Part shown: in pieces, positions 8,422 through 60,735 of the stretch | Layout: the number at the start of each line of letters is the position of its first letter | Numbering within the stretch: the stretch's first letter is position 1 | Source of the DNA: Devosia sediminis | Lineage (GTDB): Bacteria > Pseudomonadota > Alphaproteobacteria > Rhizobiales > Devosiaceae | Direction of reading: 5' to 3' | Assembly: GCF_016411825.1 (NCBI RefSeq) | Contig: NZ_JAEKMH010000004.1 | Coordinates: forward strand, 1 to 64,000 | Length of the DNA stretch: 64,000 bases | Program-made: the position numbers and the translations under genes | The notes under the pieces: model-generated | Databases searched by the model: none | The model's input: only the letters and a program-made list of their open reading frames with translations | What the model was told of the DNA's origin: nothing

Positions 8422-9315
8422 TTACTTGTCCTTGAAGTGGTGCGCCAAGACCACACGATCAAGGCCACCAAGGTCCTTGTGTACCGCAATATCGGCAAAT
8501 CCGTGGTCGGCGAAGAGTTTTGCGACCGCCGCGCCCTGATCGTAGCCGATTTCAACGAGCACAATACCACCAGGGGCGAGAAACCGCGCCGATTGCGCGG
8601 CGATGACCCGGTAGGGCGCGAGCCCGTCCGCCCCACCATCGAGCGCCAGGCGGGGGTCGAAATCTTTCACCTCCGGCGCCAGAGTCTCCACCACGGCGCT
8701 GGCGATATAGGGCGGGTTGGAGGTGATGAGGTGGAATTGGTCTCCCGACGCAGGCGATGAGCCCGCGGTCACCCCACCCTCAGTCCCTCCCCATCGAGGG
8801 GAGGGAGGGATCAAGGGTGGGGGGCCTACCAAGGCCTCGAACCAACTCCCCAGCGCAAAATCCAGCCGCTCCGCGACGCCGTTGCGTTCGGCATTGTCTT
8901 GCGCCATGGCCAGTGCGTCGGGATTGAGGTCCGTGGCCAGACCTGTCGCATCCGGGCGATTGGCAAGGACGGCGATGGGGATGCAGCCCGTGCCGGTTCC
9001 CAGATCGAGAAGCCGCCCGCCGGGCGGCAGGTGCTCGAGAGCGAGGTCGACGAGAAGTTCGGTATCCGGGCGCGGCTCCAGCGTTGCGGGCGAGAGGCGG
9101 AACGGGAGCCCGTAGAATTCCTTCTCGCCGATGATCCGCGCCACCGACTCGCCGCTCATCCGCCGCTGCAGCAGGTCCGCGACCCGGAGTGCGTCGGCAT
9201 CGGTGACACCGTCCTGCTCGCGGGTGGCGAGGGCCAGGGTATCAAGGCCGAGGGCGTGGCCGGTGAGCAGTTTTGCGTCGAGCGCCGCGGTTGCGAAACC
9301 GAGCCGCGTCAGCAC
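8422..9315 (-). CDS. prmC: Peptide chain release factor N(5)-glutamine methyltransferase
   Basis: Methylates the glutamine of the GGQ motif in release factors RF1 and RF2. The SAM-binding LLDLGTGTGCI motif and the substrate-binding SNPPYI motif (about 199-204) are both present. Two oddities stand out. First, about 28 residues (about 163-190, rich in P, G and S) lie between the WFEAL strand and the NPPY strand where the family is normally contiguous; they are encoded by a palindromic repeat. Second, GTG at 9315 gives a short N-terminus without a ribosome binding site; the frame stays open upstream, and a CTG at 9363 overlapping the prfA stop as CTGA would add 16 family-like residues (a GWRDVLTRLG-type helix). 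It follows prfA. Confidence 0.9.
   Translation of the reverse strand: MLTRLGFATAALDAKLLTGHALGLDTLALATREQDGVTDADALRVADLLQRRMSGESVARIIGEKEFYGLPFRLSPATLEPRPDTELLVDLALEHLPPGGRLLDLGTGTGCIPIAVLANRPDATGLATDLNPDALAMAQDNAERNGVAERLDFALGSWFEALVGPPPLIPPSPRWGGTEGGVTAGSSPASGDQFHLITSNPPYIASAVVETLAPEVKDFDPRLALDGGADGLAPYRVIAAQSARFLAPGGIVLVEIGYDQGAAVAKLFADHGFADIAVHKDLGGLDRVVLAHHFKDK
8770..8824. repeat. C-rich palindromic repeat inserted inside prmC
   Basis: A 55-bp imperfect palindrome with outer arms CCCCACCCT / AGGGTGGGG and inner arms CCCTCCCC / GGGGAGGG. It is the same element family as the intergenic repeats at 59411-59518 and 60636-60735. Here it lies within the prmC reading frame and keeps it open, adding a Pro/Gly-rich loop before the NPPY motif. 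Confidence 0.85.
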
Positions 9316-9359
9316 ATCGCGCCAGCCGCGCCAGAGCGCGCCGATGCTGGTGCCATCCG

Positions 9360-10436
9360 TCAGTTGACCTGCTCCATGGCCGCCAGTTGTGCTGCCTGGT
9401 TTTCCGTGATCAGCGCCTCGATGAGTTCATCCAGTGCTTCGCCCGCAATGACCTTGTCGAGCTTGTAGAGCGTCAGGTTGATGCGGTGGTCGGTCACCCG
9501 GCCTTGCGGGAAATTATAGGTGCGGATGCGCTCGGAGCGATCGCCCGAGCCGACCTGGCCCTTTCGTTCGGCCGAGCGGGCCGAGTCGCGTTCCTCGCGC
9601 TGCATTTCGTAGAGGCGCGAGCGCAGCACAATCATGGCCTGAGCCCGGTTCTGGTGCTGCGATTTCATTGCCGAAGTGACGACGATGCCGGTGGGAATGT
9701 GGGTGATGCGCACGGCCGAGTCGGTGGTGTTGACGTGCTGGCCGCCGGCGCCCGAGGCGCGCATCGTGTCGATGCGGATATCCTCGTTGCGGATTTCGAT
9801 GTCGATGTCTTCCACTTCCGGAAGCACCGCCACGGTGGCGGCCGAGGTATGGATACGGCCCTGGGCTTCAGTCGCCGGCACGCGCTGGACGCGGTGCACG
9901 CCGCTCTCGTATTTCATCCGCGCATAGACGCCCTTGCCAGAGACATTGGCGATGATTTCCTTGAAGCCCCCCATTTCGCCGGGGCTTTCTTCCATGACCG
10001 TGACCTTCCAGCCGCGGGTCGCAGCGTAGCGCTCATACATGCGGAAGAGATCGCCCGCGAACAAGGCCGCCTCGTCGCCCCCGGTGCCGCCGCGGATTTC
10101 AAGGATGATGGACTTGTCGTCGGCCTCGTCCTTGGGCAGCAGCAGGATGCGAATGGACTGTTCGAATGCTTCGAGGCGCTCGTCGAGTTCCTCGATCTCG
10201 GCCTGAGCCATCTCGGCCATTTCCTTGTCGCCGCTCTTGAGCAGCGCCTCGGCCTCGGCACGATCGCGCTGCGCTTTTTTGTAGGCGGTGATTTCGCTGA
10301 CGATTTCGGAAAGGTCGGAATGCTCCTTGGAGAGCCGGGCCAGTTCATCCGGGCTCGCGCCAGAGGACAAGGCCGCCTCGATGTACTGAAAGCGGGTTTC
10401 GAGGGCGTCGAGCTTGTCCTGGGGCAGGCTGGGCAT
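9360..10436 (-). CDS. prfA: Peptide chain release factor 1
   Basis: Reads UAA and UAG in the ribosomal A site and triggers peptide release. At 358 residues it has the usual length. The codon-recognition PAT motif is seen in [12 protein letters not shown] and the catalytic GGQ in GAGGQHVN. The stop overlaps a possible CTG start of prmC, which methylates this GGQ glutamine, so the enzyme and its substrate are made from the same transcript. The gene follows ptsP with a 179-base spacer that holds a dispersed repeat. Confidence 0.98.
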
Positions 10437-10477: not shown

Positions 10478-10566
10478 GTCATTCCGGCGCAGGCCGGAAT
10501 CCAGGCGCGAGGCACCGACCGTGTGGATGGTTCAAAACATGGACCCCGGCCTTCGCCGGGGTGACA
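10478..10566. repeat. GTCA-bracketed dispersed palindrome, copy 1
   Basis: The element opens with GTCATTCCGGCGCAGGCCGG and closes with CCCGGCCTTCGCCGGGGTGAC, two hairpins bounded by GTCA and TGAC. The same architecture recurs at 29327, 36613, 42736 and 58370. It lies between ptsP and prfA. Confidence 0.8.
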
Positions 10567-29295: not shown

Positions 29296-29326
29296 GGCTT
29301 GCCGCGGGTTCTTGGTCGCCCACCGT

Positions 29327-29402
29327 GTCATTCCCGCGAAAGCGGGAATCTCCGTTGATGATCCACGGCCAAAACAGGGGTTCCCGCTTTCGCGGGAATG
29401 AC
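29327..29402. repeat. GTCA-bracketed dispersed palindrome, copy 2
   Basis: Opens with GTCATTCCCGCGAAAGCGGG and closes with CCCGCTTTCGCGGGAATGAC, so the two ends are also inverted copies of each other. Same architecture as the copies at 10478, 36613, 42736 and 58370. Confidence 0.85.
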
Positions 29403-29425
29403 TCTGTGGCTGAGACATAAAAATA

Positions 29426-36597: not shown

Positions 36598-36612
36598 GGG
36601 CTCTCCACCTTC

Positions 36613-36716
36613 GTCATTGCCCGGCTTGACCGGGCAATTCAGACGATGCGACAGCGCCCCTGGACTACCCGGTCAAGCCGGGTAGTGACGACTGCGGGAA
36701 AATCCCGCTCAATGAC
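36613..36716. repeat. GTCA-bracketed dispersed palindrome, copy 3
   Basis: Contains GTCATTGCCCGGCTTGACCG and an inverted partner ending CCGGGTAGTGAC, then a further GCGGGAAAATCCCGC hairpin ending AATGAC. It lies between rpmB and yhhQ. It is a sequence variant (GACC instead of GAAG loops) of the copies elsewhere. Confidence 0.75.
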
Positions 36717-42707: not shown

Positions 42708-42735
42708 GATCTATTTCCGTATTCATCCACCGGCT

Positions 42736-42804
42736 GTCATCCCGGCGCAGGCCGGGATCCATCCTGAGATCGCGGGATGGGCCCCGGCTCAAGGCCGGGG
42801 TGAC
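42736..42804. repeat. GTCA-bracketed dispersed palindrome, copy 4
   Basis: Opens with GTCATCCCGGCGCAGGCCGG and closes with CCCCGGCTCAAGGCCGGGG then TGAC. It lies between argJ and the GNAT gene, within one likely transcript. Confidence 0.85.
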
Positions 42805-58350: not shown

Positions 58351-58369
58351 AGCCGCCACCCCCACGATT

Positions 58370-58437
58370 GTCACCCCGGCGAAGGCCGGGGCCCATCCTG
58401 AGATCTCAAGTTGGATCCCGGCCTTCGCCGGGATGAC
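58370..58437. repeat. GTCA-bracketed dispersed palindrome, copy 5
   Basis: Opens with GTCACCCCGGCGAAGGCCGG and closes with CCCGGCCTTCGCCGGGATGAC; each half forms a hairpin and the halves also pair. It lies between convergent aroB and bolA, where it may stop both transcripts. Confidence 0.88.
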
Positions 58438-58466
58438 AGCCGGTGGTTGATTGGGCATAAGACGCC

Positions 58467-59410: not shown

Positions 59411-59518
59411 AGCCCCCCACCCTTGATCCCTCCCCACAAGGGGGAGGGAGACGATGGACACCGGCGCGCCAGTCCTGCGCCTCCCTCCCCTTGATGGGGA
59501 GGGAATGAGGGTGGGGTG
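59411..59518. repeat. C-rich palindrome pair between J-domain gene and cobS
   Basis: Two arms, 59411-59451 (CCCCACCCTTGATCCCTCCC) and 59480-59518 (its inverted counterpart ending GAGGGTGGGG), enclose a short spacer and can form one long hairpin; each arm also has an inner CCCCxxxGGGG hairpin. Same family as the element inside prmC. Confidence 0.85.
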
Positions 59519-59630
59519 ACGTCTCGCGCTGATCCAGGCAATGCCCATCCCAAGGCTACCCGCCCCGTCACAATGCTGCTATAGAGCCACCGCCCGCCAG
59601 ATTTTATCCAGCCATTCCAAGAGCCCGACC

Positions 59631-60635: not shown

Positions 60636-60735
60636 CTCCCCTCCCCCTTGAGGGGAGGGGCTGGGGGTGGGGGTCCATCGGGTAACCACTGATCCACCCC
60701 CTCCCCGACCCTCCCCTCAAGGGGGAGGGGGCGCA
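60636..60735. repeat. C-rich palindrome pair between cobS and cobT
   Basis: Two inverted arms, the first with CCCCTCCCCCTTGAGGGGAG and the second with CCCTCCCCTCAAGGGGGAGG, flank a spacer containing GGTAACC. Same C-rich family as at 59411-59518 and in prmC. It lies inside the likely cobS-cobT transcript. Confidence 0.85.

Follow-up and report, generated by a model that had tools for sequence, protein, structure and literature searches.

The palindromic elements of Rickettsia (RPE) and Wolbachia are about 100-150 bp long, belong to several families and lie in frame in conserved genes, where they are solvent-exposed, according to the consulted portions of four reports (PMC10969869, PMC2229807, PMC3767692 and PMC4224334). 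The portion of PMC3767692 at hand also places different RPE groups at nearby positions in orthologues, hotspots of insertion being among the possibilities it raises. REPs were found inside genes of several species, some of these being the only decorated gene of the species, and different REPs occupy about the same site of recB in two Xanthomonas species, as stated in one section of PMC3733652. From the precedents in PMC3767692 and PMC3733652 the kind of phenomenon is known, and different repeats at one in-gene site have been seen before, while a single loop refilled throughout a genus by repeats of several kinds was not found in the literature search. Outside subscription journals, the search brought up neither repeats in PrmC nor palindromes within genes of Devosia.

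In the soil bacteria of the genus Devosia, the surface loop of PrmC that leads from the WFEAL helix into the FDLIxSNPPY strand is probably, at a rough probability of 0.7, a site where palindromic repeats land and turn over repeatedly. Comparison of the sequences showed that repeats of several kinds lie in frame in this loop in about a third of the species, that sister species differ in them, that trimmed forms exist and that the repeats have multicopy relatives in their own genomes.

The repeat of the prmC gene analysed here, named family A, resembles RPE in being a multicopy palindrome (106 bp for the full element, 193 hairpins against 1 for the reversed pattern) and in lying in frame in a conserved gene. 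RPE were reported in many unrelated genes, whereas in Devosia one loop is refilled and none of 87 other repeat clusters (a sample, six genomes) lay in frame in a gene. Because spread into many unrelated genes was unmet in this sample, the Devosia repeats were kept apart from the RPE class. As judged from the published descriptions, they work like the Rickettsia palindromic elements, but probably in the form of a one-loop hotspot. An earlier sequence-only reading of this DNA had proposed the Rickettsia likeness, which held for in-frame palindromes but, in the clusters sampled, not for spread into other genes. With regard to intragenic REPs, prmC is not named in the section of PMC3733652 consulted, and the Devosia pattern differs in being genus-wide and involving several kinds of repeat.

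The prmC gene and the family A repeat

The window covers the initial 64 kb of contig 11 in genome G000, and loci of named Devosia are among its PrmC relatives within the genus. The following features were identified in it.

8422..9363, minus strand: prmC (release factor N5-glutamine methyltransferase), from the open frame and the curated family model
8707..8736, minus strand: strand 210-215 and the catalytic NPPY (residues 216-219), intact, downstream of the insert
8719..8838, minus strand: variable region of 40 aa lying between the WF and NPPY codons
8770..8824, minus strand: in-frame 55-bp palindrome, encoding residues about 180-198 (GPPPLIPPSPRWGGTEGGV), an internally deleted family A copy by reading
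59413..59518, no strand: full-length family A repeat, 106 bp, two hairpins, intergenic, upstream of the presumed cobS; reference copy
60638..60730, no strand: related C/G-rich repeat variant, between the presumed cobS and cobT

The frame of prmC stays open from 9363 to 8422 on the minus strand with the palindrome included, and the protein scored 259 bits with TIGR03534, above the curated cut-off of 199.1, so the earlier statement that the palindrome keeps the frame was correct. The N-terminal PrmC domain (PF17827) is present, the sequence is similar to solved HemK/PrmC chains, and N216, P218 and Y219 of the catalytic NPPY are invariant in 49 aligned sequences. By family model, sequence and fold the protein is a full-length PrmC/HemK, and it differs in a loop that is disordered in the model and about 25 residues above the median of element-free Devosia. 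Only one other PrmC match was listed for G000, a weak one (E 4e-9, residues 116-170).

The frame opens with CTG (9361-9363), a codon outside the usual start codons, which overlaps the prfA stop. An in-frame CTG overlapping TGA (CTGA, 9360-9363 in the window) directly precedes the conserved GxLWR in 63/63 Devosia loci where this motif was found, six more loci being without the motif. The overlapped TGA was the prfA stop in the Devosia examples printed, and ATG, GTG and TTG were absent between CTG and GxLWR in 58 loci. The gene prmC may start at the CTG and be coupled to prfA termination.

The AlphaFold2 model of the window PrmC (49 sequences) had a mean pLDDT of 90.9, with values below 50 for residues 186-206, and the closest solved structure was E. 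coli PrmC with RF1 (2b3t_A, rmsd 2.2, TM 0.80/0.90). Modelling had been suggested as the way to judge exposure of the loop, and here the loop is predicted to be disordered and the rest of the enzyme fold intact. In the model the loop joins strand 210-215 at its N-terminal end, NPPY comes after its C-terminal end, and the SAM motif follows strand 117-121. The parallel Rossmann sheet is an established topology. With the loop before strand 210-215, and NPPY and the SAM motif after their strands, this topology argument puts the loop of the model on the face opposite the active site. It had been thought that PrmC tolerates a loop beside its substrate pocket; the tolerance is borne out, but a place beside the pocket is not supported by the model, in which the loop lies at the opposite strand end.

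The stretch 8770-8824 is a near-perfect palindrome of 55 bp, and the loop DNA folded as RNA gave -64.7 kcal/mol against a dinucleotide-shuffle mean of -50.6 (z -3.6). As the sequence-only reading had recognised, the palindrome is of the same family as the intergenic repeats of the window, with 95% identity over 41 nt to one half (59480-59520) of the repeat beside cobS. We take the genes beside these intergenic repeats to be cobS and cobT. Family A copies in G000 start with ACCCCCACCCT, end with AGGGTGGGGTG and contain two hairpins, and identity drops beyond the ends; the inner span of complete copies is 100-101 bp, the cobS copy being 106 bp overall. These ends are inverted terminal repeats, as in MITEs, and unlike GTAG/CGTC-tagged REPs the family A ends examined have neither GTAG nor CGTC. 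The family has spread, as had been supposed, with about 190 hairpins in G000, where the pattern CCTCCCN{3,14}GGGAGGG was found at 271/225 places against 3/3 for the reversed control.

The nearest family A relatives of the prmC copy in a sample of G000 match it over 39-58 bp at about 90-97% identity. The prmC copy has both outer ends and one hairpin, so we read it as the 106-bp repeat shortened by an internal deletion. An encoded loop of about 28 residues had been described; the insert is coding, and the sizes are about 19 residues for the palindrome (180-198) and about 34 for the loop (176-209, the residues between WF and strand 210-215).

At gathering thresholds, Rfam matched nothing in the window. 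A second palindromic family (GTCATTCCGGCGCAGGCCGGAATCC type) was seen at four window sites (10478-10566, 29320-29409, 42723-42788 and 58369-58450), and an inverted repeat of 32 nt with a 17-nt spacer, unlike family A, lies at 36611-36691.

The prmC loop in Devosia and beyond

A PrmC match was present in 75/75 Devosia genomes, and the stretch from WF to NPPY was read by script in 69 and by eye in 3, while G048, G054 and G059 had no readable prmC and were left out of the counts. Two of the genes read by eye, G056 and the frameshifted G004, had short loops. The G004 gene (L126) lies in frameshifted pieces in a 6-contig genome, which may be a sequencing error or a broken gene. In the third, G012 (L132 and L133), two contigs stop within repeat sequence at the loop, which suggests that the repeat interrupted the assembly. 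Assembly artefact as the source of the inserts was ruled out, as elements are present at this place in one-contig genomes (among them G013, G016, G028 and G053).

Recognisable palindromic repeats were found in the loop of 23 of the 69 script-read genes, or 24 of 72 with the genes read by eye. The WF-NPPY length was 30-116 aa (median 53) in the 23 carriers and 13-29 aa (median 15) in the 43/69 without a recognised element, 36 of which had 13-18 aa; E. coli PrmC has 13 residues there, counted from the alignment. Short family B remnants were present in 3/69 loops (G043, G037 and G023). All inserts read are in frame. The longest loop, of 116 residues, was observed in G022 (L140), with two different multicopy repeats in tandem.

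Six kinds of repeat were distinguished by motif: family A in 10 genomes (half copies included, as well as the doubtful G019, assigned solely by its likeness to half of the G053 insert), B in 8 besides the three remnants, C in 3, a further kind in G013 and a tandem pair in G022. Stretches of 35-49 bp at 77-89%, consisting of short C/G-rich hairpin sequence, are common to A, B, C and the two repeats of G022, and thus the kinds are not all independent; the G013 repeat gave no sequence match to the other five.

Five of the six kinds are multicopy in their own genomes. Besides the prmC insert, G013 contains a further copy with 94% identity over 111 bp along with numerous partial ones, and its sister G014 carries the G013-type repeat elsewhere in the genome, with family A in prmC. 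For family C in G036, at least 39 copies besides prmC were found at 79-85% among the 40 of 206 candidates that were scored; nearly all of them span about nt 9-128 when aligned to the query of 162 nt, and the element boundaries thereby fall inside the loop. In G022, nt 14-159 and 195-314 of the loop match two separate multicopy repeats. Family B copies were assessed by pattern counts only, with medians of 49.5 in the 14 genomes bearing B or C (remnants included), 12.5 in A-bearing and 3 in empty genomes. Without correction for kinship, family B copies were more numerous in B/C carriers than in the rest (p 4e-7), A plus B counts differed between genomes with any element and none (p 0.0015), and family A copy number showed no significant increase in the genomes bearing A (p 0.15).

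Wherever a Devosia loop was examined for this, repeats of its own genome matched it, which supports the tie between loop and repeats that had been proposed. An old protein feature unconnected with repeats would explain that the position in the protein is always the same. This explanation has hardly any credibility, since the loop DNA has multicopy matches within its own genome and the loop is absent in the 228 genomes checked outside Devosia (58 of other Devosiaceae genera and 170 of other families of the same order), where no comparable loop was found. The contrary case that the sequence-only reading had named, the same loop in distant families with no likeness to repeats, was thus not found in these genomes, and its proposed mapping across Devosiaceae placed long repeat loops in Devosia and none in the 58 other-genus genomes. 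Of 61 genomes from other Devosiaceae genera, 58 were covered, and their PrmC match was never more than 10 residues longer than the query; for the 140 covered of 239 other-family genomes the excess was at most 16 residues, anywhere in the protein. Of the other 99 genomes of these families, 3 gave no match, and 30 chosen for weak first matches were read by eye, with lengths no more than 7 residues beyond the model span, G207 excepted. The partial match of G207 was rejected as a long insert, being a frameshifted gene with an ordinary loop.

The long loops could form strong hairpins in 19/23 cases (z -2.3 to -12.1). The loops of G019, G031, G046 and G047 had ordinary folding energy (z -0.1 to -1.2), and the last three each had a 21-23-nt hairpin. 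The hairpins within one family keep a constant codon phase. Both the strong hairpins and this phase would agree with inserts kept for a function, either as an RNA hairpin tuning prmC translation or as a peptide loop making a new contact. This is quite improbable, as no element was recognised in 43/69 species, loop sequence and length vary widely and the loop is predicted to be disordered.

Probable recurrence and turnover of the inserts

The tree of PrfA and PrmC without the loop was a quick one with 30/67 inner branches poorly supported, so supported neighbours weigh more than the tree as a whole. Element carriers are scattered over the tree, a tree with the 23 carriers held in one clade was rejected (p-AU 1.8e-72), and the element must have changed between presence and absence 16 times or more. 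Several well-supported sisters differ: G057 has A and G058 has B (support 100), G067 has A and G066 none (support 99), and G013 has its own kind and G014 has A (support 92). In addition, G035, with half of B, was grouped with G033 and G069, both without element (support 99). The deep-branching G025, G002 and G030 have short loops, and G022, likewise deep, has the longest.

Left ends could be located for 17 inserts, and 16 of these lie 9-16 nt after the WF codons, G064 being at 27; G051 and G035 are half copies, and G019 and G038 gave no left end. Alignments to other copies begin near loop nt 17-19 in G013 and 9-14 in G022. Filled and empty loops, compared by eye for a target-site duplication, were too diverged to define one.

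Some prmC inserts of one kind are very alike between species (G009/G064 94% over 121 bp, G049/G058 85% over 135 bp, G014/G073 84% over 128 bp), and the G009 insert resembles the G064 insert more than it does the best-matching intergenic copy of G009 (81%). Together with the constant codon phase, this suggests common descent or exchange for some of the inserts. A history in which Devosia ancestors received one old insertion or a few, which were passed on and later replaced through recombination with other repeats or lost by deletion, with few new ones, would account for this likeness, for the similar insertion point and constant phase, and for the family B remnants in G043, G037 and G023, and the hairpin stretches common to most kinds could guide the exchange. 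Such a history is conceivable, yet we hold it for the less probable one: the G013 repeat is unlike the other kinds and 94% identical to a copy in its own genome, the loops were short in the genomes checked outside Devosia, and deep G025, G002 and G030 are short-looped, though deep G022 has the longest loop.

When the 69 Devosia PrmC were aligned, no insertion of 4 aa or more was found elsewhere in the protein. Codon scores on both flanks placed 0/87 other repeat clusters in frame in a gene, and the same procedure recovered the prmC copy. The 87 clusters comprised 57 from six Devosia genomes, mostly the first listed places and thus a non-random sample, and 30 from a continuous 400 kb of G000; the codon score can miss genes. 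A count of in-gene copies had been suggested, and in this sample it came to the prmC copy, with none in frame among the 87 other clusters. A second candidate flagged by the score (L202, 9582-9654) was rejected, as it lies between two ORFs on the other strand, presumably DUF559-like and hydantoinase-like.

Pure tolerance would mean that repeats insert at random everywhere and that the PrmC loop is a rare survivable site, with no targeting and with older palindromes irrelevant. It fits the lack of inserts elsewhere in PrmC, the frame kept by all inserts read, as selection requires, and a loop that the model shows as disordered and not at the catalytic end. Tolerant surface loops are common in proteins, yet this one is occupied in a third of the species while 0/87 other sampled clusters lie in frame in a gene, and the left ends are clustered within a few nucleotides, so tolerance by itself seems unlikely.

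For the preferred reading, in which the loop is a permissive point of repeated landing and turnover, the elements would be drawn from the repeat pool of the genome itself and would either insert or replace a resident element by exchange. Frame-breaking copies would be purged by selection, and surviving copies would shorten via deletion between the palindrome arms, giving forms like the window copy, the half copies and the short hairpin remnants. The remnant palindrome may favour the next arrival. The encoded peptide, rich in Pro, Gly, Ser, Glu and Arg, would be a disordered passenger opposite the active site, neutral or nearly so. Insertion sequences entering REPs, as described in the consulted part of PMC1525189, give a precedent for palindromes as targets.

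A stronger form is a true landing pad, in which different repeats would be directed to one point by a resident palindrome or by the WFEAL-codon sequence, and the cycle of arrival, trimming and replacement would outpace the evolution of the surrounding protein; we put this forward tentatively, as a doubtful extension. Neither the recurrent acceptor loop across the genus nor the apparent internal deletion of the window copy had been noticed in the sequence-only reading.

Protein-coding palindromes are best known from Rickettsia and Wolbachia, where old single insertions and hotspots are hard to separate. Devosia offers one loop with many states in a genus with cultured species, by which the question of insertion or hotspot becomes testable: comparison of strains, enzyme assay with and without the loop, and comparison of the turnover rate with the rate of protein change are all feasible for the Devosia loop.
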